In this document: one piece after another, positions 29,487 to 50,959 of the stretch
Numbering within the stretch: position 1 is the stretch's first letter
Layout: each line of letters opens with the position of its first letter
Assembly (NCBI GenBank): GCA_947561395.2
Contig: OX387184.1
Location: forward strand, 15,604,205 to 15,668,204
From: Buxus sempervirens
Taxonomy: Eukaryota > Streptophyta > Magnoliopsida > Buxales > Buxaceae
Direction of reading: 5' to 3'
Length of the DNA stretch: 64,000 nt
Made by a program: the position numbers and the translations under genes
The notes under the pieces: generated by a model
What the model was told of the DNA's origin: nothing
Seen by the model: the letters and a program-made list of their open reading frames with translations, nothing else
Database searches by the model: none

Positions 29487-29884
29487 ATGGATCATCAGAA
29501 GCGAGGTTCCCTAGCAGACACGATGTCTGTGGTTCCGTTCAAGAAAGCTCTTGTGGCGATTCTCTTGTTGATCTGCTTCTTGATCTCTCTTGCAGTAGGG
29601 GGTAAGTTACTATGTGCATTCTAAAATTTAAGCTTTATTGGCTACCGGAGTTCTGAGAGACTAGCTGTTAATGGAAGTGAAATTGATCTCAAACAAATTC
29701 TTGTTTTGTGGTAGGAGAAGGCAATGGAATGGGAAGCCTGCAGGTAGCCCAAATGCATAATTCACGAGTTGAGAGGACTGATGGAAATCAAGTTACATGG
29801 CAAGAACAAGATGACTCAGATGGAAGAGAATTGGTGGCTTTGGATTATGCCCCAGCTCGAAAGAATCCTCCGATTCACAACTAA
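29487..29884 (+). CDS. RGF: RGF/GOLVEN (CLEL) peptide hormone precursor, copy A
   Basis: Two exons, 29487-29601 and 29715-29884, separated by a 113-bp GT-AG intron in phase 1, encode 94 residues. The N-terminus MDHQKRGSLADTMSVVPFKK is followed by a hydrophobic signal segment (about 20-38) that directs secretion. The middle is variable and acidic. The protein ends exactly with DYAPARKNPPIHN (82-94), the conserved RGF/GLV/CLEL motif: Asp-Tyr for Tyr sulfation, Pro residues for hydroxylation, C-terminal PPIHN. In this family the 13-residue mature peptide is released by subtilases and sensed by RGFR/RGI receptor kinases to control root meristem activity and gravitropism. The paralogue at 49687-50049 is nearly identical. 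Both exons are too short for length-based ORF finding. The frame is open and the gene looks functional. Confidence 0.9.
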
Positions 29885-30211
29885 GGATTAATGTAAAGGC
29901 TTTCACCTCTATCATTTGAACTTAGATAAAAAAAAAAACAATAAAAAGAGTATTTGAGTGTTTCGATTGGCCTTGGCGCCTTGAGTGATAGTTTAATGGG
30001 GGAATTACAGGTAGAATAGCTTTGATGCACAGTCAGTTAAGAGTCTAATGAACAAGGTGAAGGACCTACTAGTCATCCACCATCAGTCTGTAATAGGAAT
30101 TATATAATTTCCAGATGGGTGTTCTTGGATATAATTCTTATTAATGTCCGTGTTTCATTTCAGAAATGCACTGTCAGCCTATATATATTAACTAAACTTA
30201 TATACCGACAC

Positions 30212-30491
30212 AAAATGGCTGAACAGACAGCAGCACAGTCTCCATTCGATACATGAATGAATGATCTTTGGTGGACAATTTTTCTATAATTTGAAGCATG
30301 TTATTCATTTGATTGCTGAGTACAAGTGTCTGCTATATAATAATGATCATAAAATGGCTGGACAGACAGCAGCACAGTCTCCATTCGATTCATGAATGAA
30401 TGATCGATCTTTGATGGACAATGTTTTATAATTTGAAGCATTTTATTCATTTTGTTGCTGAGTACAAGTGTCTGCTATATAATAATGATCA
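30212..30491 (+). repeat. Tandem duplication of about 140 bp
   Basis: Two near-identical units run from 30212-30350 and 30351-30491, each starting AAAATGGCTG(A/G)ACAGACAGCAG and ending with TGCTATATAATAATGATCAT. A few substitutions and a 4-bp difference separate them. Copy B of the segmental duplication has no such tandem, so this arose after the block duplicated. It lies about 330 bp downstream of RGF gene A. Confidence 0.9.
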
Positions 30492-30728
30492 TAAAATGGT
30501 TTTCTTAATCTTTCGGCAGCAATGTGGATGTGGTCATGTAAGAAATTAGAATGTCGAACCCAGAAAATTCGCCACCCCATACGCAATTCCGAGCTCTCCA
30601 CTGGGCTGTTCAACACAGCAGAACCAAGAAACAGATATTATCTTTGGGATTTTAATTAATTACCAGCATATAGTGCAGTTTGAACTTTGATGTTATTGAA
30701 TGCAAATAGAAGCACATACCGTGGTGCA

Positions 30729-32346
30729 ACAAACACCTGAGGTGACCACTTAAAAAGATATTCTCTTATGAACAAAGCCCTTTTGATGAAAGCAGCATGG
30801 CATCTGTATTCAGGTAAGAATTCCTTTTGGGTTAATTTCATGAAGAATCTTTATTTTCCCACCTCGTCTTTCAAGGAAGCAGTGATTAAGCCCCATCAAT
30901 CGTACATATGGAAGCAACTAGTCAAATTAAAACCATTCTTGGAGAAAGGCATTGGCTGGCTTATAACAAATGGTAACAAAGTAAATATATTTTCTGATGT
31001 TTGGTTTCAATCGGGTGAGCAAATACCAGCATTTCAGAATTCTCAAGTAGATATGGATCTTACCAAGGTAAAACATCTTATAGATTCTGATTCAGGTGAA
31101 TGGAACCTTCCTCTCTTACTGTGGCTATGGACCCCAGAGACGGTGGAGAAAATTTTAGCCACTCCCATCTCAGTGGACCTTAATGAAGACACTCTTATCT
31201 GGAGATTAACAGCGAAAGGCCAATTCTCGGTGGCTTCAGCTTATAGAATGTTACTGGGTAATTCTCCTTCTCCTTCCCATAGTAATTGGCTATCATGTTG
31301 GCATTTGAATTGCCCTCAGAAAATAAAATTACATTTATGGAAAAGCTTGCATAGTGCACTTCCTACGACAGGTTTCCTTAATTCCAGAATCAAGATATCT
31401 TCAGGTGAATGCAGTCTCTGTCATCAGTCCAGTGAATCGGTGGAGCATTTATCGCTTAAGTGCCCTTTTTCACGAGCAGTGTTGTTTCAGGCCATTGGTG
31501 GAGCTACCCAGTCTTGTGACCCTCAGGATTCTTTCTTCTCTTGGTTTAGTTTTCTATCCTCCTTAAAACGCCCTTTTGCAGATTTATCAAAAACTGATTT
31601 ACTTACTTCTATTGCTAATTTAGGATGGACGTTATGGTTGCATCGAAATCAGGTGATATTTCACAAACAGCAACCTAGCATATGTAGGGTTGTAGATCAC
31701 TTCCATCGGCTGGAACAGGATTCAAATATTATTAAGAATTGCAAAGACCGTATGGATGTTGTGAAAGAGCCAATTTCAATTAATTGGCAACCACCTCTGG
31801 TCAACTGTTTCAAATTAAATTTCGATGGTGCTTTCAGGAGATCCACCGGTCAAGCCAGCATTGGTGCTATCATCAGGGACTTCCAAGGTAAGTTTATTGG
31901 TGCTGTGGCGTCCATTTGTCATGCTTCTTCGGCTATTCTAGCAGAAGCCATTGCTGTGGTAGAAGGATTCAGATTGGCTCTTCATCTGGGATTGACACAT
32001 ATTGAAGTGGAAGGTGATTCCTTATTGGTGATAAAATTGTTATCAAATCCAAATATGGATTCTCCGTGGCAGATACTCGCATTGATGTTGGAAGCTAGAC
32101 GACTAATGAACTCATTTGCAAGCATCAGATTCTCACATGTATACCGAGAAGCCAATCACGTTGCTGATCTTCTGGCGAATTATGCTCTTGATAAATATTC
32201 TTGTACATGGATTTTCAAACCTCCTGAATTTTTATCTAGTGTATTACATGATGAAGCAAGAGGTCTGCTGTATGTAAGAAAGATACGTTAATAAATTTTT
32301 TTGTTTTCTACCAAAAAAAAAACACAAACACCTTAGGTGACCACTT
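30729..32346 (+). mobile_element. 5'-truncated LINE insertion with target duplication
   Basis: A 23-bp direct repeat flanks the element: 30729-30751 and 32324-32346, sharing ACAAACACCT(G/T)AGGTGACC and differing at one position. The inserted DNA (30752-32323) ends in a poly(A) run (32313-32322) directly before the second copy. Copy B carries the uninterrupted counterpart near 50980-51005. Target duplication, poly(A) and 5' truncation are the signature of LINE retrotransposition. Confidence 0.93.
30768..32291 (+). pseudogene. LINE ORF2 C-terminal part: zf-RVT and RNase H
   Basis: The frame is open for 507 codons. It has the zf-RVT region (about 150-245, with FSVASAYRML and GECSLCHQSSESVEHL...CPFS) and a plant-LINE RNase H domain (about 345-475). 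All RNase H acidic residues are visible: NFDGAF, LAEA, VEGDS and REANHVADLLA. The endonuclease and reverse transcriptase expected upstream are missing because the insertion begins just before the first Met, so it is a dead-on-arrival copy although the remaining frame has no stop. The long uninterrupted frame suggests a fairly young insertion. It would not move by itself; expression as a separate RNase H protein is possible but unsupported. Confidence 0.9.
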
Positions 32347-34889
32347 TTCTGATCAAACGTTAACTAGCTAGTAACATAAAGGGGTTTTAATGACCAGACA
32401 AACGGATATTCGTATGTTTCACGCATCAGACATTATTGACTTTACATACTGCAGTGGCCTATGAGAATATACACGCTATGCGCATAGAAAAACTGGATGT
32501 TGGAATAAATTTTATAAAAATGAAGGGCATTTTAAGTATAAAATGTTTGGAAGAAAACAGGGAGTTGGCTTTATATAATAGTATACGAGTCATATAACAA
32601 GTTGCATTTGTATCCGACTTTATTTTTCTTTGCTACCACTTGGTATGTCTTCTTAAATTCCAAATTCATTTAATTCATTATCATTGCGCATAAGCAAGTG
32701 CACATGTGACTCTAAACCATTTAATAAAGATTAGCAGACACACATATATTCAAAATAAAAAACGAGAAAATAATTTAGACGAAGAGCTCATGTCATTCTC
32801 TTGTCGTCGTTTAATTTTGAAAGCATAATCTAACACCATGGGTTAGTTTCCTTACAAAATAATATCCACAACTTGATTTTTGATTATTTTTATTTGACAG
32901 GGTGCATGTGCAGTAATGCACCTACGTAGAAAGGGAAGGGATGCCGCAAACAGATGGTAAGAGAAGAGGTGGGAGGGAACAACTGAGATCATGTGGGACC
33001 TTTATCTACAACCTTATGTGAAGCTTGCATTGGGATCATGCCATGTGTATTGTGAATGGAATATTTGTAAATTTTTAAGCAATCCTGTGAAAAGCTGCAA
33101 ATAAGGTTGTAGATAAAGGTCATACAGGATGTGAATTGGGGGGAACAATTTGTAACGGTCTATGTTGCAAACGAATAGATCAGGAAGGTATGACTATTTC
33201 TCTATATGAATCTAGCCTTAATAATGGATGCTAAGGCCTTTTTTGGGATGTCAAGCATAATAACTGTCACGCTTGTGAGGGACTCCTCCCGTTATATATA
33301 GATGTTCACAAGACTTTGGATATTGACATCTTTGATTAACTCCACGACTTTGACGAAAAAGGAAAAACAGGTCACGTCTATAATTTCACGACCTTTTCAC
33401 CTTGATATATACTATTAGTTGATCATCCTTCGGTGGGACTTGTAGTGATCAAAGGGGCATAACAAAGCTTGATATTATAAAAGAAAAAAGATGTTGCCCT
33501 CCTTTTTTCTTTGTCAGCTTAAAGATAGATTTTAATTATATATAAGAATGATTTAAACAGCTTTCAGCATTTAAAACAAGCACTCAACTTGAATTATTGT
33601 AGCCAGGATTAGTTTTTACAATTCCAGCCAAATGCCACGTGAATATGGCCTTTGACCGTCTTTGTGCTTTATGTGCCATTTCTTTAGCAATATACTTTTT
33701 TTTTCTTTGTTGAACATTGCGCAATTCCTTATAATGAGAGGCGGCAATTGTCACCCATGACCCCCCAACTCACCCAGTCTAAATGGGTTTGGGTTGACCC
33801 ATTTAATAATTGGGTTAGGTTTGGGTTTAGGTTTTCTCAACCATTGTGATAAAAAACGGGTCAACCCATCAAGTACCCATTCAAATTTAAAATTTCCTTT
33901 TTTTTCCCTCTATTTTTATCTCTTATACCCAATTTATATTCTATCTTATTATTTTACCAAGTACACTTAATTGATTAAGCATTTTAATTTAATATTATGA
34001 GACTTTAATCATTAAATTATTTTTATGGCAAATGTTATTTTATTAATTTTGAGAATTAATAATATTGCTATATATACATGAGTTGTTTATTTATTATACA
34101 ATATATACGTAATATGATTATATAGTTGTATTACATAAACTTTAAAGTTATATTTTTAATACAATGTGAGACTAACTATTATAATTTTATTTAAATTCAT
34201 TTAATTGTTTTTAGATATTTCTAATCTTCTTCTCAAGTAAGTTTCCCTTATTTTTTAAATTTTTTGGAAAAGAAATCATGTTTATTAAGTGTTTCTATGT
34301 TATTTTTTAAGGTTTTACTGTATTAAATGGAGTTTTTATATAGAATAAAAATAAAAATAAATTGCTAAACTAGTGTTTCTGCGACATGGTTTGCTTCACG
34401 GAATATCTTAGAGATATGCACATAAATGAACAGGCCACATAGATGTCTAGCCTCCTCCATAAGATGTTTTATCCTCTATATTGTTTTGTTTAGCAGGCAC
34501 CCACTAGTTTCTTATATATTCATGATTAAAGCGAAAAAAAAAGAAAGGAAAATCCAAAATGTTCTGTTCAATCCGGCCAGTTTTCTGCCAATTCATACAC
34601 CGATCTAAACCTGTTCCTCGTTTTATAATGAAGTCAAATGAGGGTTTGAAGCTTTGAGCCGCACGTTAATGGGTGCCTGTCAGGCCCAATTTTTAGAAAA
34701 CCGCTTGGGACTTTTGTTATTAACCAGAATCACAACACAATTAAAACCCAAAACTGGTTCTTCTTCACAAGGTGACTCGTAACACAGAAAGAGAGAAACG
34801 AGTACACAACACCCTCGTGTCCGTGACCTAATTAAACCATGCAACACTAACGAATTACTCCACACAGTACTCTTCAGGACTCTTTCACC
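32347..34889. other. Intergenic, end of copy A and repeats
   Basis: No gene is supported. To about 33740 it matches copy B. It includes a small hairpin MITE (32997-33125). From about 33744 to 33905 a CCCAACTCACCC / GGGTTTGGGTTGACCC-rich stretch resembles one end of a hAT-like element. Near 34375-34420 (-) a short REANHVAE reading recalls a LINE RNase H end. The rest is AT-rich. The 3' UTR of the peroxidase gene must lie just left of 34890. Confidence 0.5.
32997..33125. mobile_element. Short hairpin MITE
   Basis: Perfect inverted repeats GACCTTTATCTACAACCTTA (left) and its complement (right) bound about 129 bp. The complementarity continues imperfectly inward (GAAGCTTGCATTGGGAT against the complement of ATCCTGTGAAAAGCTGC), so a transcript would form one long hairpin. 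No clear target duplication was seen. Confidence 0.7.
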
Positions 34890-36217
34890 TCAGTACGCTT
34901 CTCCCGCCTCCTCTTCATCGTCCACTACAGACGACAGATACGTCGTTGCAGGGTTCCTCGCAGAGCAGTTCATACGAATCTCTCCTTGCGTTCCCGTCAA
35001 CACATTCAGCTGGCTCATCTTGATCATGGCCAAGGAAAACCTCCTGAAGAACAAGCGCTGGTTCGTCGCGAACCTCGTCACAATGGGTCTAGTCCTCCTG
35101 TCGGTGAACAGGTCCTGGTCCGACTTGAACAGCCCCTGCCGGTTAACGAGATCCACGTAGTACTGGTTGTCAAACAAGTTCGGTGTCCGGATATCCAGCA
35201 CGGTGGTGTTGTTAGAATCGATGGTGGGGCAAACGCGTCTGAGCCTGTTGGCAAAGTTGGGGTTCATGGTGGTGTCCTGGGTCGGGAATAAGCGATCCGT
35301 GAACGAATTGCATTGACTAATTCCGATGGTGTGGCCGCCTGAGAGAGCCACGGCGTCGGTGGCGTCCAGGTTTTTAGCGGCAAACATGTTCAGAATGCGG
35401 GTGGTGTCGGCGGAAGGAGGTGGAAGGTTCGCCAGCGTCGTGTCATCGGATGCGAAGTTGAGCCCGTCACGCCTTCCCAGAGGGACCCTGTAATTCGGAC
35501 CCCCTGACTGCAATAACACACGAGAGAAGAAGAAGAAGAAGAAGATATCAGGTGCGGTCCCAATCCTTCAGGATGGAGGGATAGCCACGTGGCTAAATTT
35601 TTCAGCGAAGGAGAGACTCAAGTTAGCTTAATTACCAGAGCTACGGAGTCACGAGCAGCGAGGGCGGTGATGTCGGAGCAGGAGACGACGCGTCCACAAG
35701 CCCTGTGGACAAGTTGGCGAAGGTCGTTGATGATTTTAAAAGACTGTTTTCTCAGAGTCAAGTTTGGTGGTGAAGACTTCTCTCCCTGACCGGCAACTGG
35801 TGCGTCAAGCAGCACTGAGCCATCACATCCCTACACAATTAATTAAGGAACACAAGAAGCCATTAAGCATCGATCAAGCTAAGATGCACACATTAGCTAG
35901 CATTAATTAGAGGGAACTAAAGGTAACATATATATAATACTCGAAAATCATGAATGGATTTAGTTAACTACCTGAACAAAGCAGTCATGGAAGTGGAGAC
36001 GAAGCAAGCCTGCAGCTTGGCCGATATCTCGCCTGAAGACGTTCCTGAGGTGGTTCCTGACCATTGTTTCCAACCTGGGACAGCTAGATCGGTAGAAGGA
36101 CCATGAGAGCCCCCTCGCTAAAGGAGGGGTGGGTTGGGCGGTTGAGATGGATACATAACAACCCAGGAAGAGAGAGGAGATCAGAACAAGAAGATAGGTG
36201 AAAGAAGAAGAAGCCAT
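34890..36217 (-). CDS. PER12: Class III peroxidase, peroxidase 12-like
   Basis: Three minus-strand exons, 36217-35972, 35830-35636 and 35507-34890, join in phase 0 with GT-AG introns to give 352 residues. A signal peptide (about 1-27, MASSSFTYLLVLISSLFLG...) directs it to the secretory pathway. The distal haem-pocket motif RLHFHDCF, the GCDGSVLLD calcium site, RACGRVVSCSDI and the proximal haem ligand in LSGGHTIG are all present, with the eight conserved Cys. NTTVLDIRTPNLFDNQYYVDL and LNVLTGTQGEIRMNCS match the peroxidase 12 subgroup. It would oxidise phenolics with H2O2 in the cell wall or vacuole; the acidic tail EEEAGEAY may be a vacuolar signal. I chose the Met at 36217 because an upstream Met (36268) lies in the TATA box TATAAAT at 36273-36267. 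The gene looks intact. Confidence 0.95.
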
Positions 36218-36266
36218 GATTGCAGCTCTGTTTTGTGACCCAAGTGGGGTTGTACAGGCGAAGCTC

Positions 36267-36273
36267 ATTTATA
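36267..36273 (-). promoter_or_regulatory. TATA box of the peroxidase gene
   Basis: TATAAAT on the minus strand, 50 bp upstream of the chosen ATG at 36217. This spacing leaves a short 5' UTR and rules out the upstream in-frame Met at 36268. Confidence 0.6.
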
Positions 36274-37506
36274 GGCACCAGGCAATGAGGACTTCAGAAG
36301 AAATTAGTGGGCAGCGGTGGTCACATTTTTTTTGGTAAACAGGGGTGGTCACATGGTGAACACGTTCCTTGAGAGTATTTTAATTTTCTGCTTGGATATC
36401 TGGAGCTTATGCTCTTCCAACCGTACGTACAAGGTAGTCAGAGTATAGCCAAATGCTAGAGTCCAAGTCAGGAGTTGGTGAAGCTGTTTATCATAATTTA
36501 AATATAAGATAAGCAGCTCTAATTCAATTTTGAGCCAAAATTTTAAAAATATTAAAAAAAAAAGGAGGAAATTAAATTTTAATAAGACTTGACAAAGCCA
36601 TTTTTTTTAAGCAATAAATTACAAAAATGTTAACTTTCGCAGACAAGTGTGGCAACAAGTGTCACAATAATTCATCAGGGGACGCATAGAGTTTGATTAT
36701 TTAACAAAGAGAGTCAAGAGACTGACTTGAGAAATATTTAAAAAGAACATATATTAACTCAAGTTGAAGACTTTTTAAATAGGATGACATAATAATTATA
36801 ACGACTTCATATATACACATCTTCGCTTAGACTAATGTCTCCGGTCACTAATTTTAGTTTGCTATTTGAAATCGTTTGTTGCTTGTCCTTTTGTAGCAAA
36901 TTAACCATATGCAATTTCAGTTAATTCGCTATCACCAAGTAATTAACTTAACCAGTAAACTTACAAAACTCAGCTGAATTTTTCAGTGACTCGTACGTCC
37001 ATTCTCCACTTAAGCCTTCACAATAAGAGTATTTTAAAGTCATACATAACCCTGCTAATTAATTAGCCAGGTGGTAACATGGGGCTAATTACAGCTAGAT
37101 TAGTGTCGTCCAAGTTCTTTAAACACGGCAGCATAGAAGGGCTTTACAAAATAAGCTGCCATGTGTGACTAATATGGTAATATGTCATGTGAATTTTTTT
37201 TTCCTTTTCTTTCGTTTTTTTTTTGTCTTTTTTGGTAGGGGCATGTGAAGTTTCTACTTGGGAGCTTTTCACCGACCGACAACATCGTTTCATTGTCCAA
37301 AGTCGATAGTTGTTGTACCAAAAATCAACGCAACTTTTCTCCTAAAGAAATCAATTAATCTACCTTGGCAGAAAAATATAACAGAAAACAATTTAAGACA
37401 ATGGCGCGGAGCCGCTAAAATGGGGGTGACATCGTATGCCACGGGCATGCCGCACAGACGATATAACTATCTTGGGACGTTGTCACGTGCAGTATCCCAT
37501 AGTAGC
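36274..37506. other. Intergenic, no feature recognised
   Basis: AT-rich sequence upstream of the peroxidase gene, presumably including its promoter. I see no coding region, RNA gene or clear repeat. The ORF at 37258-37527 has no family features and runs into the TRIM. Confidence 0.5.
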
Positions 37507-37976
37507 TTTAATGATCTAACTCAGTGAGGTATTGTCCACTTTGGGCCTTAACCGTACAGTTTTGTTCTCAAAAAGCTCTTCGCTTGGTTAAGTGTTCTCC
37601 ATGATTCTTATACCATATCGGGTATTCATCTGTTTCCAATGTGGGATCGAGGTATCACAATCTCCCTCACTTTAGAGCTGTATGTCCCCATGCAGTGACC
37701 ACCTATAAGCCTGCCAGCCCCTCATGGACCCCCCCCTCGTCGGTCCAACCACCTCCTATGGGCAACGCTAGGACCCACATCAGCCACAGACTATTGAACC
37801 CGGATCTAGTTTTGATATCATTTGTAACGACCTAACCCAGCGAGGTATTGTCTGCTTTGGGCCTTAGCCTGTACGGTTTTGTCCTCAAAAGGCGCCTCGC
37901 TTGGTTAAGTATTCTCCCTGACTTTTATACCATACTGGGTATTTATCTGTTTCCAATGTCGGATTGGGATAACACA
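37507..37976 (-). mobile_element. TRIM (terminal-repeat retrotransposon in miniature)
   Basis: Two direct repeats of about 153 bp, 37507-37659 and 37823-37976, share GAGGTATTGTC...CTTTGGGCCTTA, TCGCTTGGTTAAGT and ATCTGTTTCCAATGT. A 5-bp target duplication GTAGC flanks the whole (37502-37506, 37977-37981). Beside the right repeat, TTTTGATATCA is close to the complement of a Met-tRNA primer-binding site, so the element lies on the minus strand. The interior of about 160 bp has no coding capacity. Confidence 0.85.
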
Positions 37977-37984
37977 GTAGCTGT

Positions 37985-38120
37985 GCATTTTATATTTTTC
38001 AATATAAAATGTCACTTTATTGTCATTTCACATTGAAAAATGTGAAATGCACAATGGCCCTAGAATGCTATACGTGGCAGCATCCCAGGATTTCAATCCA
38101 ATAAAATGAGGATTGATATC
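37985..38120. mobile_element. Hairpin MITE-like relic
   Basis: A central inverted repeat (TTTTTCAATATAAAATG / CATTTCACATTGAAAAATG) followed by GTGGCAGCATCCCAGGATTTC resembles the family at 886-1072 and 23474-23692. It lies directly beside the TRIM. Confidence 0.45.
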
Positions 38121-38879
38121 ATCTATAGTTGAGCCCAGCCAATCCTTGCTTGCAATAGTCCTGTCCTTCCTCTCTTGTGTATTGGAAAATGGAAAAATAA
38201 TTTTTCACTTTTTCAGGGACTGTTGCTTGCCTATTTGGCAAGGCCGTAAATTAGCTCAACTGTAGATGATATCAATCCATAAAATGAACCTCTCTATTGC
38301 CGTTCATCACTTGTTCACTTGTCTTGGTTTAATAAGAAACATGATGTTCTCTGATACACACACACATATACATATGCAAGTTAAATTTTGAGTGCTTTTA
38401 TATATGACTAACGAAAACTGATGTTGTACACACTAGAGCTGTGTAAATCTAGCTCGGACCACCCAAAGCCTGCCCAACCCAACCCGAATAAGAGCCCGAA
38501 GTGAGCATTGAGTTTGGGTTGGGTTTAGGACTGGCAATGGGTCAAATACGGTACGGATCTACTAAGATTAGAATCTGAAATAAAAATCCAATATCCAAAT
38601 TCGATCCGAAAAGCTGACGAATCTTTTATACGTAAATTTGAATTCGAAACCGAATTTATATACTGTATCCAAATTCGAAATTCGACCGAATAAATAACCG
38701 AAATCCGAATTTGATCTGATTTCACTACAAAAAATATGGGTTTTAGTGGCGGACTAAGACCGCCGCTAAAACTCAAAAGACTGCCACTAAATCTTCTCGA
38801 CTACGACAGCTGTCCGCCGAGGAATGGACCGTTGCTGAAAGTTTCAGCGGCGGTCTTAATGGCGGTTAGGACCGTCGCT

Positions 38880-40687
38880 GTGAGACATGGGAAAAAATCA
38901 AAATTATGATTTCCTCAATCATCACACGGGATTAAATAAAACAAAGAGTCGCCACCATTCAATTTAGGTGTGAATGGACACCAAAATATTAAATAAGCAA
39001 AAAGGCAAATTTTTAGGGCAAAATATCCCTCCTAAAAAAAACAACCAGAGATGGGTAAGGGGATTAAGTTATGAACAGGGGAAGGTGTTAGGCACCCCTA
39101 TTCATCCACACAAGGTGGTTGCCAAGTATTTGTTCATGTTAAACAAAAAAAGAAGGGCTTGCTATAAAAATCATGAAATCACAAAAAAGGCAAAAATATA
39201 TGGTTTTTTCATATGAATAGTCTGATTGATCCAGAACTTTCAAATATGATCATACCATTCCTAGGGTTTCATGATCAAAATAAAATTGAGATAAAATCCA
39301 ATAAAATCAATTTAAAGTGAAAAATCCAAAAATCTGGCTTCAAGTCAAAATTCTAGAAATCTGGAAAAATATGATTTTTATAAAATATTTCAAAATTGAA
39401 CTTGAACAGTCCAGGACATAGGTAAAGCCCAAATTTCACATTAAATCTGAAAATCAAAACCAAAAATACCCACGTTGATGAAGAACACCAAAAGGGGAGA
39501 ACTGAGACCGTAGGGTCTTCTCTCAATAATCAAAAACAATTTAAAAACCATATCATGAAACCCTAGAGTTTATTTTCAGGCTTCTGGATTCAAATCTACC
39601 ATATTGATCATGATAAATCCAAGATCCTAGCCTAAAACCACAAAAATCACGAAAACAGTGCTGTAGGTGCAAAAGTGGCAAAAATCCAAATTTTGGCAAA
39701 AATAGGGGATCTCATGCTATAAACATCATAGATTCATGTAATTCATTCAGATATATCATAAAAAGCATTAAAACATGATCAGGATATTTAAAACAGTCAC
39801 ATCTCACAAATTAGAGCACATGGGGGTCTACCCTACGGATCCACCTGGTCCTCTTTTCCCCTAGTTCTCTCTTCACGTTTTACGGCTAAAGAGACTCTTG
39901 AGGTACTTAGAGATAGGTTTGGTTACACAAACACAATCACAGGCCTTATTCTATGAAAAAAAGAAAAAACAGATATGGGGTTCTATTCTAGGGATCCACC
40001 TGTTCCCCTTTCCCCTAGTTCTCTCTTCACGTTTTACGGCTAGAGAGACCCTTGAGGTACTTGGAGGCAGGTTTAGAAATACAAAAACAGATATGGCCTT
40101 ATTCTACAGCAATAGAGATGATCCTATTACTTCTAGAATTGAAGACAGAAAATAAAAAGGGATAGGGGACTTACCTGGATTGAGCAGGCAGAGCAGCAGG
40201 GATTCCTTTCCTTCTCTTGGAGCTTTTGATTCTTCAAAATTTCGTGGTCCTTAGCTAGAGGAATGAGCCTCTATTTATAGACATACCCAGGGGCAAGGCT
40301 GGTCCAGAAGGATATATCCTGATTCTCAGGATAGAGTGAAATACAGAGATAATGCCCATCCATAGCCATCCAAGGTGACTTCAGCGAATAAAAGACATAA
40401 TCCGCTCGTTTAAAGATATATTGGACTTCAAATAAAGCTCGGAAATCGAGAGGAGGACAAAACTTTCACGTGTCTTTAATGCCCGTAAATACACTACGGT
40501 CCAATGGGGACCGTATAGTTACTACGGACGCGCCTGTCCGTAGATAATTTGCGGGCGCAATGGGCCCGTGAAGCTAATACGGGCAAAGCCTGTTCATTCT
40601 ATTTTTAGGCCTTTTTGAACTGTTTTAAGCTCTAATTACATGTTTTTATTATTTTCTCATTTGGCAGTGCAATTTGGGGTGTCTACA
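38880..40687 (-). mobile_element. Solo-LTR-like element, copy 2, level 4 of the nest
   Basis: A 1808-bp element in the opposite orientation to copy 1 (25892-27700). It starts GTGAGACATGGG and ends GGGGTGTCTACA, flanked by the direct repeat GTCGCT (38874-38879 and 40688-40693). Its insertion splits a CACTA subterminal repeat. Like copy 1 it has GAGTCGCCACCATT near one end, GGTGTTAGGCACCCC, two copies of the roughly 155-bp unit with CACGTTTTACGGCTA, and a TATA box on the minus strand. The length agrees with copy 1 to within one base. Confidence 0.75.
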
Positions 40688-40826
40688 GTCGCTAAAGATC
40701 ATTTTTCTATTAAAAAAAATAAAACCCAATCCCTACCCGCCCTGCCCCAACCTAGCCCGTGCTCTTGCCCAGTTGCCCGTGCCCCTTCTGCCCCTTTCCC
40801 TTGCCCGTGCAATTACAGAGAACGAA

Positions 40827-41368
40827 TTAAGAAGAAAATTTGCAAAATAGAAACTGAGTCAAATCGGCATCTCGAATTTGCAAACAGGGCAGTATGACTC
40901 GTCTCCAACAAGCGAGTGATGCAACCTCCATGAAAGATGTGGGAGTAGGGAAGCGAGTGATGCAACCTCCATGAAAGATGTGGGAGTAGGGAATCTCCTT
41001 CATTTCCGACCCCACTTGACGTTCATCAAGACAAATGGAACAGTCACCCTTTGTTGAGTCTCCACCTTTCAATTCAATACTTCTCAGTGCTTCAATGGCG
41101 GATTTCAATGCCGGAATTGCACGAAAACCGTGCCTCTTTGTCTTGTGGTGGATTCCCTGATAACCCTTCTGATTGCTGCAACTTCGTCGTAGAAAAGAAC
41201 CTCTAATGCCACTATCTCAACACTCACCATCAACGTCTCTCTTCCTTCACTGAACGCGTTCTCCATGATCAGCTCGCTAAGGTAGGATGATATCTGTTGG
41301 ATCATGGCTATTTGTGATTTGAACACATTTGAAGGATTCATAGGGCAACAAAATAGGATTTGAAACAC
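40827..41368 (-). pseudogene. Captured RING-H2 E3 ligase fragment
   Basis: The minus strand reads SAIEALRSIELKGGDST, then CSICLDERQVGSEM, then SHIFHGGCITR, the first part of a RING-H2 finger. It is broken: a zinc Cys in the usual PCSH is Tyr (IPYSH). A 41-bp tandem duplication (40910-40950 and 40951-40991) interrupts the finger and shifts the frame, and a further shift separates the last CxxC part. Upstream, 41105-41368 reads on in a different frame, with a stop before SAIEAL, and may be the preceding part of the same gene. It lies inside the CACTA element. Confidence 0.6.
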
Positions 41369-42288
41369 TATCTTACCTCTTGTTCAAGCTCCACTCTTCT
41401 TTGTTGTCCACTATGCTTCTGAAACACTATCTTACTTCTTGTTCAAGCTCCTCATATTTTCTGTCCACTAAGTTGCTTCTTACTCTGTAAGTGAACAAAA
41501 GCAAAAGCCAAATATGACCAAAGATCATCAAACTCAGATCTAAAACTGTGAGTACTATATTTGAATAAAGCACTCTTACCTGAGGATTTTCTTCCTCTCT
41601 TTAGAAGGCACTACAAAAGAAAACACATAATATAATTGCTTTATATTTAGATATGGACAGATTCCAAACCTAGAATCCAATATCTGAACTTGAATGTTAG
41701 CATCTCTCGCTGCCCAAATATTAGGTATTACAGTTTGGTAATTCACCTTTCGAACCAGAATTTCATCGAAGGACCTTTTACTCCCTAAAAGACTAAAGCC
41801 TTGTCACAACACTTGCTCAGCCACAACAAAAATTAAACAACAATAGAACAATATAGATTCTAATTCAAGGCATCTAAAGGAGAAGTAAGCCAAGAACTTG
41901 TCATCCATGCTAATTCCCGAAGATACTCTGAGCACTGGTTGTTGATACCACATGGCTAAAATAGGGCTTAAACATCCTTGCCTTAGCAACACACAACTAA
42001 GAGGATACCTGTCCCAATAGAAAATAAATAAGAAGATAGAGATCTGATAAGTGGTTATGGTGCCTTGGATCTTGTCTTTGGCATATTCAAGATTCTCGAT
42101 CAGTTTTGAATGTTATCCATGCGCTCGTTTTGGTCCTATTGGAACAGCATTAGAGTTAAAGAATCAACACTAATAGAAGCATCAAACAGATCTTACGAGA
42201 TCTCATATGGAACAGAGGAAGTAGACATGAATCCTCATCAATAGAGATAGAAACAAACAGATTGAAAGTAAAAACCCTAAACGCGAGG

Positions 42289-42430
42289 AACGGTGATCAT
42301 GAGAAGGAGATTCTCGTGCAGTATCCGAATGTCGCCGGCCTCGGTGATTATTCACCTGATTCTTCCCCCATTTCAAGAAAGACAAGGAGAAATTGTGCAG
42401 AGGTTGGGATTTGATAGGAGCAGTCGCCAT
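42289..42430 (-). pseudogene. Captured fragment resembling a DUF1639 N-terminus
   Basis: About 47 residues begin MATAPIKSQPLHNFSL, followed by FLKWGKNQ and a basic, Ser/His-rich stretch. The KSQPLHNF and LKWG motifs recall N-termini of plant DUF1639 proteins of unknown function. Homology ends near SHDHRSSR and low-complexity sequence follows. A near-repeat of the border (CCCTAAACG.GAGGA) at about 42277 and 42565 suggests a rearranged junction. Inside the CACTA element; the family assignment is from memory of the motif and moderate. Confidence 0.45.
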
Positions 42431-42580
42431 GGACTTCGTATGTAGCGTTCTGGCTTCAGAGATTGCCTGAAACACCATCTATTGATAAAGCATTCGGAGA
42501 TCAATCGAGAGAGATTTCTCTGTAGTGTGATCCGCTTTGAATCTCTTTAAGAGAGAAGAAAAAACCCTAAACGTGAGGAG

Positions 42581-42582
<2 letters not shown>

Positions 42583-42672
<90 letters not shown>
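42583..42672. repeat. (AG)n microsatellite
   Basis: About 90 bp of uninterrupted AG dinucleotides inside the CACTA element. It creates a spurious Leu-Ser-repeat ORF on the minus strand. Confidence 0.95.
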
Positions 42673-42674
<2 letters not shown>

Positions 42675-42719
42675 CTGGAGCTCTCAGAGGACTTCCTCAA
42701 GAAATCCAAACCCTAGAAA

Positions 42720-44340
42720 AAATAGAGACTGAGAGAGAAGTGTTGAAAGGATTTGCCAAAGAGAAAGAGAGACAAAGAGGGGAGAGGGAAGACTAAAAGA
42801 ATTGTAAGTACCGCAAGTAGAATTGAGGGAGCCAAAGAAAGAACAAAGGAGATGTGGCAGAGCCTCATCGCCCGATCCATTGCTATAAGTATAGGAAATA
42901 AATCCCTACTTTGGAGACAAGGAAGCGGCAAAAGGAAGGCATTTCAATGAGCATCCCTGGAAAGAAATATGGGTCTCGCAGAGGCAACAACATATAGTAC
43001 CAGGATCAAGGAGGTAGAAATCTTCTTTGATGCACCAGCATTTAGCCGCGTGAAATTGGCTTCCTTACAGATTGGATTGTGTATATTTTTTGGGTTTACC
43101 ATTTGGATTAAACCACTTGAGGTCATATTCTGGAGATATGCGGAACTCGTCGGGACTAAGGGCACGGACTTCGAGCAATCCTTTGTTAGAAAGGGAGAAC
43201 GGAGGTTTCATTATCAAGAAGCTAATCCGGCTTGTAGTTTGAGGGAGATACCCGGCTGGTGGGGGTCTCTTACTCATAGACTTGACTCTAACAAAGGTGG
43301 AAAGGAGGACTTCTTTGATAATAGCAATTTATGAGACCCTTCTTAGGGAAATGAAAGAGAAAAGTATTAACTTGTTGATCAACCCTCTTTGTTGAAGGTC
43401 CTACCTTAACACTCGATCATGCGACAGTCGATCTGTCCATCCAACTACATTCACTGGGGGGTGAGGTTGTCCAATTTCAATTATGTGCCGCTCGTTGACA
43501 TCTAGTTTCCATTGCCCGCTTATAGGTGTGAGAGATCTTCCTTCGGTTCTAGTCAAGTATGGCAGCTTGAGGTCTCCTATATAACTTTCACCAGCCATTG
43601 GGAACTCTAATCAACTTTCATTTAACGGCAGGCGAGAAAGGATAGCAAGAAAGGTAGAAGGGGGGTTTGCTCCCGTTTCGGGGTTCTCTTGTGGACTGGC
43701 TGTTGACTGGCCTTTGCCTGTCGTTGGAGTTGGCGTCCAAAGGGTGGAAGAGTCGTCGCCAAATGCAGCCTTTTTAGTCGATTTGTTTTGAGATTTGGTC
43801 TGGTTTGATTCTGGGAATTGAATGGCTGAGCCTGTGAAGCCGAGGAAGAACTGGATCTTTGCAACTTATAATTTGAATATAAAGATAAAGGGCAGGCGAA
43901 GAAAGTGCCTAAACCTGTGTTTGTTTCCAGCAGGGCAGCAGGTCATTTCACCCCAGATGCAAGTAGTTTGTTGTTTGAGAGTAGCAGAAGTGGCTGAAGA
44001 GCGAAAGAGGGACAGAACTGAATAGGGGACGCTTCGGTCTTATAATAATGATTTTTGTATCTGACGATTGATCAGACAGTTTGAGGAATTCATTTCACTT
44101 GACTAGCTTCTATGCACTACTCCCTATATTCCACACGAAGGTCATCCCGAAACCACTGAAACTGGGTTTGCCCCGAGAGGGGTGGAGAGACGAGAGAGAG
44201 ATTGAGAGATCAGAGAGATTTGAAGTGGTGAGGCACGAGAGGGGTGGAGAGAGGAGAATTCCTTCTTTCTTGTTTTTTTCTTTTTTCTTTTTAAGACTTT
44301 CAGTGGCGATCACTTGGAAGACCGCTGCTAAGGTATCTTA
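42720..44340. other. CACTA passenger DNA of unknown origin
   Basis: No gene family is recognised. The DNA differs in style from its surroundings: it is less AT-rich, has several mid-size ORFs on both strands (42969-43334 +, 43401-43598 -, 43822-44025 +) without known domains, and has a purine-rich texture reminiscent of plant mitochondrial intergenic DNA. It may be captured host or organellar sequence. This is an impression of composition, not a match. Confidence 0.3.
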
Positions 44341-45493
44341 CCTCCCGCCGGTGAATCATGCTTTTTTTTGTAGTGTTTGAACTTAAAACTCAAAAGTCAA
44401 GTTTAACTATTAAAGCAAATTTTAACTATTAAAACTAATGAGCCATATCAATATTAAAGCAAGACATGAGTAAGGATGGTTCAACCATGGTTTATAGAAA
44501 GTTTACCAATGGTTTAATGAAAAATATATGTTGATTTCGGTTCGGATCCTATTTGGATCGAATATGGATAGATTTTAATTCGGATCTGAATTCGGTCGGA
44601 TCCAAAATCAGATATCCGTATTCACCACAGATCTATATCTCATATCTGAATTTGAGATTTTTGGATCGGATTTGAATATATATCAGACCCATTGCCAGCC
44701 CTAGTTGGGTTTCATTTCTAGCTCGAAGTTAAGTTTGGGTTAGGCTTGGGTTCAAGCTGTACAACCCAAAAAGCCCGAAGTTATTGTTGACTTTATGTAC
44801 ACGCTTTCATATAGATATATGTATAAAATTCCAACAAATATATATATATATAAAACTGAATATTTATTTGTATGTATATATATCATTGTTTTCTTTTCCT
44901 TTTTTTTATTGTCATTGTATTTATGCAATCAACTATTAAACATAAATTTATTAACATATGATAATAAGTTTATGAATTTTTATCAAATAAATAATTTTAT
45001 ACTCACATACATATACATATATGTTACAATGAATGTGATATTAGGGAGCACATACTCTACAAGAAAGATTGTGCAAAATCACAAATATAGTGAGCTAGTA
45101 TTATATTTTAAAATTTTTAAAGAAATAAATTAATGAAGTGTTTTTTTCCAAATTTCAAGGGACAAATCAAGAGGAATTTGTAATGTTTGTATTTATAACA
45201 AACAAACATAAAAACATGTTGATAGACGATTTAATGAATGATATTCCAACATTTTGTAATTATAACAAAAATTGAAAAAAAATTTAAAATCTTACATTTT
45301 GTTTGGGCAACCTGAACTCAAACAATAATGTTTGGTTTGGGTTTGGGTTTAGTGAGTTTGGGTTAGGGCGGGTCAACGACGGGTTTGGGCTAGTAAATCT
45401 TAGATTAGGTTGAGTCTGAACTCTCATAACCCAACCCAACCCGCCCTACTTACATCTCTAGTATGCACTTGTTGATTTGCCCGAATTTGAAGT

Positions 45494-45625
45494 GGGGAAA
45501 ATTGGTATTAAGTGATCTTTCATAAAATAACTCAGATTCAGTCGATAGTACTTTTTTAAAATAATCAAGAATGAGTATAAGTTTACTTTTCGCAAAAATT
45601 TTCTTCAAAAACTGCCGATAAAAGA
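45494..45625. mobile_element. Relic of the foldback MITE family
   Basis: GAAAATTGGTATTAAGTGAT and CTCAGATTCAGTCGATAGTA parallel the left arm of the element at 10627-10985 (AAAATTGGTTTTTAGTGAT, TTAGATTCAGTCG), followed by the same kind of A-rich interior. The second arm is missing. Confidence 0.5.
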
Positions 45626-45836
45626 CTCGCATTTCAGCCAAATAAAACTTGCAGATTCGAGATCCATTACACTGGTATACACATAAAGTGGAATCAAATT
45701 CAAAATCCAAGAAGAAATTACATCATCACACTGGTATACTCAAGTTACTCTCCAGGTTGCAATGCTGCGTAGTGTATTCCTTTTTTTTTTTTTATTTAAA
45801 TCAAGTCAACAAGCCACGCAAGGTACACCTTGCAGG

Positions 45837-46021
45837 CAGTGGCGGAACCAGGAGTCCAAATTAGAGGGGGCAAAAAAAAAAAATTTCAATTAACACTTAT
45901 ACATGAAATATAAAAATTTCAAGGAATTAGAAGGGCAAACCAGAAATTTTAGGGGGGAGCAAAACATAAATTTCAATTAAAAAATATAGAAAAATATGTA
46001 TATTTAATTAAAAAATAAAAA

Positions 46022-46052
<31 letters not shown>

Positions 46053-46089
46053 CAATTGCCCCCCTAGCTAAAGGCTGGTTCCGCCACTG
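45837..46089. mobile_element. hAT MITE with internal poly(G)
   Basis: Perfect 15-bp inverted ends CAGTGGCGGAACCAG / CTGGTTCCGCCACTG lie inside a perfect 8-bp target duplication CTTGCAGG (45829-45836 and 46090-46097). At 253 bp it has no coding capacity. A tract of about 27 G at 46026-46052 lies near its right arm, next to GGGGGAGCAAAAC-type repeats. Confidence 0.92.
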
Positions 46090-46839
46090 CTTGCAGGTAA
46101 AAGCCTGCAAAGTGTCACAGTTTGTCTACTATGACAGTAAAAATATATTTTTTCTCTAATGGAAAAAGTGTGTAGAACGGGCGGTCCCGAGTCAGAACAA
46201 TACCGGCCGGTCTGTTCTGATTCGGGCGGTCCGAACTTGATATGAGCCAAGTTTTTTTATTTGATTAAAAGGCTGGTCCTGGATTGGAATACCGGACAGG
46301 GCCGGTCCGGTAAATCATGAATTGCTCGCTGACCGAAAAGAAGAAGAGCTCAAAAGGGTTTTTAAAAGGCAGTACTATTTTAGGCAGTACTATTTTAGGT
46401 TGGGTTTTGAAGCCACTCCACCTAACTTAAAAGATGTACAAAAGGCTCCATAAATTCCCGCTGCATGCCGGTAATGTACTTTTCTCGCCATAATAATGAA
46501 AAAATCACTTAAATTTTATGGTACATCCCCTCTTTGTTAATCATCCCACCAACGGTGATTTGTGTTATAATACTTTTTTTTTTTTGAAATTGTAAATGAA
46601 AGATAGATGAGTGGGTGCCAACCTAGTTGGGATATGTTCAGACTATAATGATGTAATATTATTTGTGCAAGTGTATTATGTATTATTGTATTTGTAATAA
46701 TTAATTTATTTAAATTTTTTGAACAAATTCTATCCCAGTATATGTAAGACATTTTGTGAATAATAAACTTATTTTTTAGATTTTTAATGGTTTTTTAATA
46801 TTTTCTCTATTTTCTCCTTTTATTTTTGCGAAAAAAGGA

Positions 46840-47025
46840 CGGGCGGCTCACTGGGCCTGGCATTGCCTAACCCTAGCTATGCCACGGGTTGGATCGTGCC
46901 TAGGTTTTTCCTTGACGGGCCAGGCACAGCACGACCCATCAAAGAAGCGGGCCAGCCCGCCAGGCAAGGGTTAATTGTGCCCATGCTGTGCTGGGCTGGC
47001 GGCTCGTTAAGCAACCCTAATCATT
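46840..47025. repeat. GC-rich dispersed repeat
   Basis: GGGCCTGGC, GGGCCAGGCACAGCACGACCC and the end GCTCGTTAAGCAACCCTAATC resemble the block at 600-812. It abuts the copia gag fragment and may be what truncated it. Exact ends were not resolved. Confidence 0.45.
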
Positions 47026-47307
47026 GCACCTTTTCCATAAAGGAAATAAATGATCATCAACAGAAGGCCGTAGCATAGAACCATCTACGAAGACTTCTTG
47101 TTTTTCAACACTTAATGCCATCGTAATGGCCCTAGTCCAAGCTGAATAGTTATTTTCCTTGAGAATGATCGAGGTCGGTTGCATATCGGTACTGTCACCA
47201 TGGTGCAGAAAATACGGACTTGTTGGATCTTTATTTGGACGAAGAAATCCAGCAACATGATTTGCATTCGTGCGTTGAGAAGAATCGGAATCACTAATTG
47301 CAGCCAT
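47026..47307 (-). pseudogene. Ty1-copia gag N-terminal fragment
   Basis: About 90 residues start MAAISDSDSSQRTNANH and contain DPTSPYFLHHGDST, LKENNYSAWTRAITMAL and FVDGSMLRP, the typical beginning of plant copia gag polyproteins (gag-pre domain: SPY.LH.GD....V...L...NY..W.R.M..AL). It stops where the GC-rich repeat at 46840-47025 begins, so the rest of gag and all of pol are absent. Sequence to about 47580 upstream on the minus strand is probably its leader or LTR remnant. Confidence 0.75.
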
Positions 47308-48199
47308 TGCGAACTATTCAAATGCTCCCATATACCATGTGAAATCTTCAACTATGGAAGGATAATGAAGCAATAAACCCTAGAAACTATTTAATATGAA
47401 CCCTAAAGAAAACAAAGAGAGTACTCTGCGATCAATCTTGATCTTCGTTTCATAAACTGCATGCTTTAACTGAATTGGGCCACCGTTTCTCACTCTATGG
47501 GATGCACACCATTGAATGAATTGAATCATCCATTCCAAATTGCATGCACAGATACTCACATGCCCACACACACATACAACACAAGATCATGCATGGCTCT
47601 TACGCCTTATGGCCGGGTACGTGGAATAGTTGAGAGCTTCTGTCGGTAAAACTCTTCTAATTCACCTTCGGCATACACCAAGTTAAATACAAAGCCTCTT
47701 AAAGGAGCAGTTGAAATTTTGATTGGCTATCCCTAGTTTTGTCTACGGATAAGATAAGGTCGTCAAGATAAACAGCATATTCACGTGAGTTTCTTCCTTC
47801 TTGCCTCTTTCATGTCGAGAACAGGAAATAAAACTCTCGATTTAGATGTCCCCTCAATAACGAACGACAACGCCATCATAAAACTCTCGACTTAGATGAC
47901 CTAAATTCAAGCGATTAACATGAGAATGTGGTAGTTTTAAGTATAGTTATTATTGCATATAAACGTTAAAGGTTTAATGAAGTCTACTGTTGGTCTGGGC
48001 ATCATATATGTTTTGGTGGACCATGTAAGAACATATCTTGGATTCGGATCATCTAATGTCGAGCCCGTAAAAGTGGTCAATTGTATAACGACTTACCACA
48101 TCAACAAACATCAATCCCTCTTCTTTCTCTCTCTTTCAAATCTGGAAACTTTTTCTTTCAATTTTTTTTATTGCTCCTACTCACAAATGTGGTAAGCTT

Positions 48200-49635
48200 T
48201 TTACTGTAAGTTACTATCAAGCACCTTTTATAGGCTCGATAGTTGACTAATATGATATGAATCCGCAACCACTACTACGAACAGGGTTTTCAGGCTGAAA
48301 TTTTGTACAAAAAATGCCATCCAAGTAATCTTAATATTACAATTTTGTCACCCCATGTCACCATAATAACCATGGATGAAATCATATGCAATTTGCGCCT
48401 AAATTCGCCCTCGATCATATATTAGTGTTCTTCTAAGTGGGCCTCATAAAAAAAAAAACATTAACATTGAGATGCTCCACGTGAAAGCATCCCACTTAAA
48501 AAACAGAAGCTACAGTTATTTGTTTCTAATTTGCTACGCATGCATTCTCCCAGCTAGTATCTTATAAAGTGCCGACTATCATCGTCTCGTCTAGATGGTA
48601 AGTTATGCATACATATATGTAAACACTTGAAGAAATCTTAATTAACGAGATCAGTTGAACAAAAAAATAGACGATAATTATCGGTCGAAGACAATTGACA
48701 ATTTGTCAATAATTATACAAAGAATTTAGCACCAATTAATCCATGAAAGTTTATGCGTTCATTAACTATAACTTGGTTTGTAACTTATCTTGATCTTTCC
48801 TTAGAGCATCTTCTTTCTCAATTTTCGTCTGGTTTTTAATCTGCATTAAGGAGACATATATTTAGATGGAACCATTTTCTTCTACGGCCATTCGTCTTGC
48901 GAACGGTCTTGCAAACGACCGGTGGGCGACATGCGTCCCACCTCCCTCTCTCCTCTTTCAGCATTGTTTTTAACCGAATTTGTATTTTTGAGCCGCGTTC
49001 GAGCCATTTAGATGTGGGCTGTGTATACCTTTTTGAAAACAAGATGGGCCCACGGGGCTTGCTTTGGGAAAACCTTAATGCTCACCCTCCAACTCAGTAC
49101 GGCATGGATCCCTCCTTTGTCTCCTCGGTCCTCACCTTCGTCGGCTCTTTAACTCCCAAAACTTGGTCATGAACAACAGAACCGGCCTGCACTGCAACGA
49201 AAGCCATTGATCTGATGAGACAGGATTTTGAGATTTTCACATTGTATGTTTGATGAGAAGGGCCCACCTGTCTGAAATATTTGAATTATCTCTTTGGGGT
49301 GCACCCGTAAGGGGTGCTGGCAAGCCTGCATACATATTATCACCCCACTGCGCACCAAGTCCGTAATGAGAATGGTCCAATACCCATTCTCCAAATATCT
49401 GTGATATATTGAAGGCTATAAACATACGTGGCTTCTTATACACCAAGAAGAATCATTTGCTTCAATAACAGAAGAGATATCGTCGCCATAGATATTTGAT
49501 GTGGCACTTTTAATAATTTGTGGACAGTTCCCTTCATCATAGAGGTTGTTAGTTGAATCGGATGCCATGGCGTATGCTAATCACGTAAAATTACTACAAG
49601 ATGACGACGTTGCATCACATGTCTCATCGTTTAGC
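48200..49635. other. Upstream region of RGF gene B
   Basis: No gene is supported. The stretch matches copy A with A's insertions removed. Small ORFs at 48836-49042, 48897-49172 and 49167-49446 lack family features and their counterparts in A are not conserved as frames. Confidence 0.5.
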
Positions 49636-49643
49636 TATAAATA
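49636..49643 (+). promoter_or_regulatory. TATA box of RGF gene B
   Basis: TATAAATA, 44 bp upstream of the ATG at 49687. Copy A has the weaker TATAATTA in the same context, with a small deletion next to it. Confidence 0.6.
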
Positions 49644-49686
49644 TGTAAGACAGTAAGACGAGCGAAATTAAAGCATAGAGCACTAA

Positions 49687-50049
49687 ATGGATCATCAGAA
49701 GCAAGGTTCCCTAGCCGACACTCTGTCTGTGGTTCCGTTCAAGAAAGCTCTTGTGGCGATTCTCTTGTTGATCTGCCTCTTCTCTCTTGCAGTTGGAGGT
49801 AAGTTACTATATGCATTATAGAATTCAAGCTTTATTACCTCCCAGAGTTCTCAAACTGCAAATTCTTGTTTTGTGGTAGGGGAAGGCAATGGAATGGAAA
49901 GCCTGCAGGTAGCCCAAATGCATAATTCACGAGTTGAGAGTACTCATGGTGAACAAGTTACATGGAAAGAACCAGATGACTCAGATGGAAGAGAATTGGT
50001 GGCTTTGGATTACGCCCCAGCTCGAAAGAGCCCTCCGATTCACAACTAA
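49687..50049 (+). CDS. RGF: RGF/GOLVEN (CLEL) peptide hormone precursor, copy B
   Basis: Two exons, 49687-49798 and 49880-50049, with an 81-bp GT-AG intron in phase 1, encode 93 residues. The layout is as in copy A: cytosolic start MDHQKQGSLADTLSVVPFKK, hydrophobic signal segment, variable middle (MHNSRVESTHGEQ) and the terminal hormone motif DYAPARKSPPIHN (81-93), which differs from copy A only by Ser for Asn. One codon is missing in the signal region (ICLFSLAVG against ICFLISLAVG). Secretion, Tyr sulfation and Pro hydroxylation are expected from the family, with RGFR/RGI receptors as likely sensors. The frame is intact and most coding differences are single substitutions. It sits in the second copy of the segmental duplication, about 20 kb from its twin, in the same orientation. 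Confidence 0.9.
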
Positions 50050-50509
50050 GGAATGTTGATATTTCAAGTAAAGGCTTTCATCCCTATCGTTTGAACTTCA
50101 ATCAAGAAACTATTAAAAACATGCGCTGTAATTGAGTGTCTCGGCCTTGGCGCCTTGAATGATGGTTTAATGGGGAATTACTGGTAGAATAGCTTTGATG
50201 CACATGCAGTTAGTTAAGGGTCTCATGAACAAGAGGTTAAGGACCTACTAGTCATACAACACCAGTCTGCTATCAGCAGCAACTCACAGTGCCATATATA
50301 ATTATCAGAAAATAGTTCATTTCTTAATCTTTCAGCAGCAATGTGCATGTAGGAATGTAAGAAATTAGATTGATGTCGAACCCAGAAGCCTCGCCACCCC
50401 ATACACAATCCCGAATTTTCCACTAGGCTGTTCAACACAGTAGAACCAAGAAATAGATATTACCTTTGGGATTTTACCAATAGAGAGTGCAGTTTGAACT
50501 TTGGTGTTA

Positions 50510-50959
50510 TCTATACTATTATATACAAAGGCAGCACAAACTTGGGAAGCATGCCAAAAACCATATCCTTACAAATCATTGTTAAAGTTCAATAATATAG
50601 GGCTATAGCTGTCTTTTTCTCTCCAACCCCAAATGGTTGGCCTGGTGGTCAATGCTTGGAGCCTAGAGGTATGCTCCATTCAAGGTCTCCGGTTCGAACT
50701 CTCTTAGGCTTAACTTGTTGGGGCCACCCCAGAGCCATTGGCTTGTAATTACCCGGTTTGTGTGGGACGGGAGGATTGCACAAGCCTCGGGGATTAGTCG
50801 GTCACGCGAGTTGGTTGGACACCCTGAGTTACAAAAAAAAAAAAGAAAAAGAAAAATCCGAATGGTTATAAAATGGTTCCTACTTCTTCAGTCAGTTGTC
50901 TAACTCTTTTCTCTTTTATCTTCATAGTGTAGTACTGCAGGTGCACCTCGGCCCGCTAG
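50510..50959 (+). mobile_element. Helitron specific to copy B
   Basis: It begins TCTATACTATTATATACAAA with AAGGCAGCAC just inside and ends GGTGCACCTCGGCCCGCTAG, flanked by A and T. Copy A has the uninterrupted site near 30697, so insertion between A and T is directly visible. A short palindrome GGTGCACC lies about 10 bp before the CTAG end, where Helitrons have a hairpin. It is non-autonomous (450 bp) and contains a SINE. Confidence 0.82.
50633..50855 (+). mobile_element. tRNA-derived SINE inside the Helitron
   Basis: The 5' part carries a polymerase III A-box-like TGGCCTGGTGG and, about 50 bp on, a B box GGTTCGAAC, as in tRNA-derived SINEs. The body ends with GAGTTAC and an A-rich tail (50833-50855). 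It resembles plant SINEs in general; I cannot assign a named family, and no certain target duplication was found. Confidence 0.7.

Follow-up and report, generated by a model that had tools for sequence, protein, structure and literature searches.

Two predicted RGF/GOLVEN/CLEL precursor genes of Buxus sempervirens appear to have survived intact in a local gene array that is decaying

Peptide hormones of the RGF/GOLVEN/CLEL family have Asp1, Tyr2, Pro10 and Asn13 as their characteristic residues (PMC8329595), and the available portion of PMC8708909 states that residues other than Asp1, Tyr2 and Pro vary greatly. One subgroup, Group R, is marked by central Arg/Lys residues, and the eighth residue, His, has been described as highly conserved (PMC8329595). 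Introns are reported in most RGF genes (PMC8708909, in part) and, in the available sections of PMC4016512, in most Arabidopsis CLEL genes as well as in all of the conifer ones predicted there. Tandem RGF duplicates are described for Arabidopsis, poplar, Medicago and soybean (PMC8708909, same portion), and no tandem RGF genes are reported for Brassica (PMC11939866).

Among the published hormones that we compared with the two genes described here, the nearest are those of peach CTG134 (DYSPARRKPPIHN; PMC5641559) and tomato SlRGF2 (YSPAKRKPPIHN; PMC8708909), and that of Arabidopsis RGF6/GLV1 (DYPQPHRKPPIHN; PMC7162652, PMC11534595) is also close, all three as given in the parts of these sources that were available. 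Peach CTG134 is expressed in ripening fruit, and GLV1 and GLV2 are described, in partially available sources, as the Arabidopsis members with the strongest predicted leaf expression. The Arabidopsis route from precursor to receptor, as outlined in the available parts of PMC7162652, PMC4983112 and PMC9066070, comprises signal peptide removal, SBT6.1, TPST, proline hydroxylation, Asp-dependent subtilases (SBT3.8 being among those that make the Asp-dependent cut before DY) and perception by RGI/SERK.

Here we describe genes A and B, located in a 64,000-nucleotide stretch of B. sempervirens contig OX387184.1 (the window; positions count from its first base unless a contig position is given). Family-wise they are ordinary, a further two RGF/GOLVEN genes that would escape detection if only single long open reading frames were sought; what they add beyond family membership is a decaying array and the loss of a basic residue at hormone position 8 in both intact copies.

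Gene structure and family identity

29487..29601, + strand: exon 1 of gene A, with the start codon and a putative, hydrophobic signal segment (exon 1 located at A and B only, genome-wide)
29602..29714, + strand: predicted GT-AG intron of gene A, 113 nt, in phase 1 (diverged more than the exons between copies)
29715..29884, + strand: exon 2 of gene A, encoding prodomain and hormone up to the stop (spliced frame, Pfam match)
29843..29881, + strand: DYAPARKNPPIHN, the hormone of gene A, with Asn at position 8 (spliced frame, motif scan)
49687..49798, + strand: exon 1 of gene B, with the start codon and a putative, hydrophobic signal segment (spliced frame, hydropathy)
49799..49879, + strand: predicted GT-AG intron of gene B, 81 nt, in phase 1 (divergence between copies)
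49880..50049, + strand: exon 2 of gene B, encoding prodomain and hormone up to the stop (spliced frame, Pfam match)
50008..50046, + strand: DYAPARKSPPIHN, the hormone of gene B, with Ser at position 8 (spliced frame, motif scan)

The predicted spliced products are 94 aa (A, ending in DYAPARKNPPIHN) and 93 aa (B, ending in DYAPARKSPPIHN), with 10 substitutions and the absence of one Phe between them; the coordinates, exon ends (29601/29715 and 49798/49880), intron phase, product lengths and both terminal 13-mers given in an earlier note on this DNA were all reproduced. In both spliced frames, an N-terminal hydrophobic segment is followed by a prodomain that changes fast and by a C-terminal DY...PPIHN motif running up to the stop, with a hydropathy peak (15 residues, from residue 22) of 3.24 in A and 3.22 in B, values from a hydropathy measure rather than a dedicated signal-peptide predictor. 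While many further GT-AG pairs likewise leave an open frame in A and B and are permitted by sequence alone, the intron listed above is preferred because both copies retain its donor GTAAGT and acceptor GGTAG and because divergence between them is higher in the intron than in the exons. Open reading frames with an ATG, GTG or TTG start cover the exons with 45 and 58 codons in A and with 44 and 58 codons in B, and the open frames over exon 2 measure 65 and 75 codons from stop to stop; the claim that no ORF of 60 codons covers the genes thus holds for started ORFs (maximum 58) but not from stop to stop. The genes had been called hidden in short exons; the exons are short, but a split structure is normal for this family and, since introns are usual in it, being hidden is not novel.

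Pfam PF21529 (GLV1-2; curated cut-off 28.1 bits) matched the spliced products of both A (E 5.7e-14, 53.2 bits, profile positions 1-69 of 69) and B (E 1.2e-11, 45.8 bits, profile positions 2-69 of 69). Exon 2 of A alone scored 47.1 bits, so that exon 1 contributes about 6 bits in this gene; exon 1 of A extended into its own intron (45 aa) gave no Pfam match. The strict pattern DYx6PPxHN-stop occurred twice in the six frames of the window and in none of 200 first-order Markov windows. Asp1, Tyr2, Pro10 and Asn13 are all present in DYAPARKNPPIHN and DYAPARKSPPIHN, a variable region lies between signal and hormone (6/42 residues differ between A and B), and, of the central basic residues of Group R, Arg6-Lys7 are kept and the basic position 8 is gone. 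Judged from these matches, A and B are RGF/GOLVEN/CLEL members, probably of the RGF6/GLV1-like type (Group R), and the family assignment of the earlier note was correct, with PF21529 above the cut-off for both genes and the C-terminal motif in place. A search of the PDB with the hormone gave one unrelated protein (E 0.0012), which was set aside.

Like Arabidopsis RGF6/GLV1/CLEL6 and RGF9/GLV2/CLEL9, with which they were compared in part from incompletely available sources, A and B have a DY start, a PIHN end, a putative signal segment, a variable prodomain and a C-terminal hormone, and they match PF21529 over nearly its full length. By contrast, GLV1 and GLV2 have Lys at position 8 where A and B have Asn and Ser, respectively, and GLV1 and GLV2 run on with Glu and Arg (per the same partial sources) where A and B end at the final Asn. 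Peach CTG134 and tomato SlRGF2 also have the Lys at position 8 that A and B lack, and position 3 (Ser versus Ala) further separates A and B from these two, in a comparison of hormones rather than precursors. No use of the exact A or B hormone sequences, searched as fragments, was found in the open literature, outside which most subscription papers lie.

The local array and relatives elsewhere in the genome

25229..33605, + strand: duplicated block around A, collinear with the B block and interrupted by insertions (nine collinear matches, 73-87% identical)
47688..51884, + strand: duplicated block around B (same nine collinear matches)
A, B, and contig C4 positions 15697017, 15706777 (C), 15732539, 15741664 (D), 15746725 and 15751617, + strand: array units or remnants
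30768-32291, + strand: ORF with RVT_3 and zf-RVT domains
34890-36268, - strand: peroxidase in two pieces, the second below cut-off
5843-6190, + strand: part of a protein kinase
9675-9747, - strand: tRNA-Ala gene

Comparison of C4:15564205-15793500 (229,296 bases, no gaps) with 14 parts of A, B and their flanks identified at least eight same-strand (+) units or remnants over about 120 kb of contig C4, and the 65 kb preceding the A block gave no match to any part of the A/B units. Six of the at least eight are relics, namely two frameshifted exon-2 relics (C and D) and four pieces of flank only; flank-only pieces might be dispersed elsewhere in the genome too. Exon 2 persists in C, where its first 33 bases are missing, and in D, and the two share a 1-nt deletion inside the hormone that throws the hormone end out of frame, and no exon 1 was found near either in the comparison of the array stretch. 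In the genome, exon 1 was located in two places, A and B, and exon 2 of A in four places among the best candidates scored, all on contig C4. Exon-2 sites changed numbered 10/137 between A and B, 6/136 between C and D, and 16-17/136 between these two groups. On these comparisons, no copy other than A and B has both exons in this local tandem array, which counts at least eight units or remnants, and the two look like intact survivors of its decay; to call them a pair, as had been done, is right as to two genes but incomplete. While multiplication by tandem duplication is common to this array and to the cases in Arabidopsis, poplar, Medicago and soybean, no array with six of at least eight units as relics is described for those duplicates in the available portion of PMC8708909.

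An element of about 1.8 kb, itself containing internal repeats of about 140 bp, recurs at 25892-27701, 38878-40687 (inverted) and 62120-63693; its copy at 25892 precisely separates two stretches that adjoin each other in the B block and therefore looks like an insertion after the duplication.

Elsewhere in the genome, family search and motif reading identified the hormones DYEQPHRKPPIHN (C9), DYTPARKKTPIHN (C21), DYSAAKRKPPINN (C11) and DYSRVRRRRPIHN (C6). The 13 genome-wide Pfam matches comprise four that represent the array, five that read as RGF motifs and four weak ones (E 0.38 to 8.6), two of which had no motif on the one strand scanned. At C21 and C9, a Group H-like motif stands upstream of the hormone on the same strand, and open frames can be constructed from one signal exon to either hormone. 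At C21:10306360-10307577, read-through gives DYCGPRTHKPKHH (102 aa, frame open), and an internal donor with two further exons gives DYTPARKKTPIHN (152 aa, frame open); this locus thus seems able, on its predicted frames, to make two hormones from one signal exon. At C9:43563486-43564881, a signal exon is followed by the DYSLPKTHPPHHN exon and, about 860 nt on, by the DYEQPHRKPPIHN exon, and it joins in frame to either. A GLV1-2 match was obtained for the DYTPARKKTPIHN product and not for the DYCGPRTHKPKHH product, and none for the H-type product of C9, so that the Group H-like products are assigned through the motif alone. A nearby copy at C9:43572721 carries DHEQPHRKPPIHN, with His where the sulfated Tyr of its relatives stands, and is probably a relic. 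A paralogue of the C21 gene at C11:37636867 keeps the R-type hormone DYSAAKRKPPINN, and its H-type read-through stops early (by eye). Alternative hormone exons have been described in conifers, where they were termed unlike known CLEL genes, and conifer CLEL14/16 share the C21 layout (both from the available sections of PMC4016512); H/R pairs were found only in gymnosperms in the searches of PMC8329595, and a limited search of partially available literature found no angiosperm case of alternative hormone exons. The possibility that a further hormone, of Group H type, accompanies A or B was rejected, as a six-frame motif scan of the 229,296 bases gave only A and B.

Hormone position 8, processing and upstream differences

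Position 8 was numbered as the sixth residue from the C-terminus, since members exceeding 13 residues exist, and is Lys, Arg or His in 20/20 published hormones compared. This sample, smaller than the full published set of 149 distinct domain sequences (PMC8708909), comprises 13 from Arabidopsis, 1 from peach, 2 from tomato, 1 from maize, 1 from liverwort and two shared sequences (one common to six eudicot proteins and one to four monocot proteins). It is also basic in all seven other RGF-like motifs read in the plant's own genome, including one relic without Tyr2, and array relics C and D have Lys there; among the sequences compared, non-basic residues thus occur only in A (Asn) and B (Ser), and the published and own-genome hormones together are basic in 27/27. 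The earlier note had pointed to the Asn/Ser difference, which is real, but this framing misses that the basic residue is absent from both genes. The codons are AAT in A, AGC in B and AAG in C and D, and by hand count one shared loss and two separate losses require three base changes each; the hormone residues other than position 8 are identical between A and B (12/12).

A basic position 8, which A and B lack, is conserved and yet not listed as characteristic of all RGF/GOLVEN/CLEL members. In the available part of a review (PMC6749341), the centre of RGF1 is described as fitting a negatively charged region of its own receptor, and it is plausible that the position-8 change affects receptor binding of the A and B hormones. 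Without a basic residue there, these hormones may differ in strength or in receptor preference from the Lys8 members elsewhere in the genome.

By analogy with Arabidopsis, the signal segment would send the A and B precursors into the secretory pathway, where SBT6.1 may pre-process them after signal peptide removal, Tyr2 would be sulfated by TPST and proline hydroxylated, an Asp-dependent subtilase would cleave before DY, and RGI receptor kinases, together with SERK co-receptors, would perceive the 13-mer. The Asp-Tyr pair and the PPIHN end are present in both A and B. Unlike the GLV1/CLEL6 prodomain, which has the canonical SBT6.1 sites RRLR and RRRAL, the A/B prodomain had no di-basic SBT6.1 site in a pattern search, RELV being the sole candidate; the RRLR/RRRAL sites are a processing feature of GLV1 and do not define the family.

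At -67, B has TGTCTC (49620-49625), presumably an auxin-response core, and A has TGTCTA (29429-29434); just upstream, TATAAATA stands in B where A has TATAATTA. Such differences could change how strong the promoter is or how it responds to auxin. In Arabidopsis, GLV1 and GLV2 are auxin-induced, according to partially available sources.

Selection and rival readings

Over the whole coding sequence, A and B differ with dS 0.156 and dN 0.058 (dN/dS 0.37; bootstrap 95% interval 0.15-1.03, with values of 1 or more in 2.8% of 2000 replicates), and synonymous versus nonsynonymous change gave a one-sided Fisher p of 0.028. Changed aligned sites numbered 13/81 in the intron and 7/112 and 12/170 in the exons, or 19/282 in exons versus 53/388 in non-coding sequence (intron and flanks; one-sided p = 0.0027). 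Purifying selection over the whole coding sequence of A and B is thus moderately supported by these comparisons, and the earlier claim that both are under selection holds at that level (dN/dS 0.37, p = 0.028), but not for the 13-mer, where 2 synonymous and 1 nonsynonymous changes are too few for dN/dS or any test of selection on the hormone alone. That the signal core and terminal 13 residues are kept while the middle tolerates change is likewise visible but not significant (residue changes 1/13 in the hormone versus 6/42 in residues 40-81; Fisher p = 0.47).

That the open frames and motif arose by chance in non-coding DNA would fit with the shortness of the ORFs and with the open frames left by many GT-AG pairs, but the family matches (Pfam E 5.7e-14 and 1.2e-11), the motif count of 0/200 in simulated windows and the exon-specific conservation between copies reduce this to a negligible probability, and a chance motif was ruled out by the family match and the simulated windows. 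A more serious rival, which we nevertheless consider distinctly unlikely, holds that A and B are recent duplicates turning into pseudogenes, with frames still open through youth and the position-8 change as the first sign of relaxed constraint. Decay of six of the at least eight array units, 7 nonsynonymous against 1 synonymous change in the prodomain, the bootstrap upper limit of 1.03 and the loss of a residue that is basic in 27/27 others all agree with this rival; it is opposed by the retention of both frames and both splice sites at a dS of about 0.16, by an exon divergence half that of non-coding sequence (p = 0.0027) and by the identity of the other 12 hormone residues. We thus consider it very probable that A and B are both protein-coding genes for RGF/GOLVEN/CLEL precursors, RGF6/GLV1-like and the sole two-exon copies in their local array.

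A further proposal, which we regard as rather unlikely, is that the array gave rise to a new receptor-specificity class, in which selection would maintain RGF peptides with a non-basic position 8 as weak agonists, as competitors or as ligands of one particular RGI receptor, beside the Lys8 hormones encoded elsewhere in the genome. Position 8 nevertheless constitutes a natural experiment, being basic in every relative compared and changed in both intact copies of one array, and this experiment bears on the role of that residue in receptor binding.
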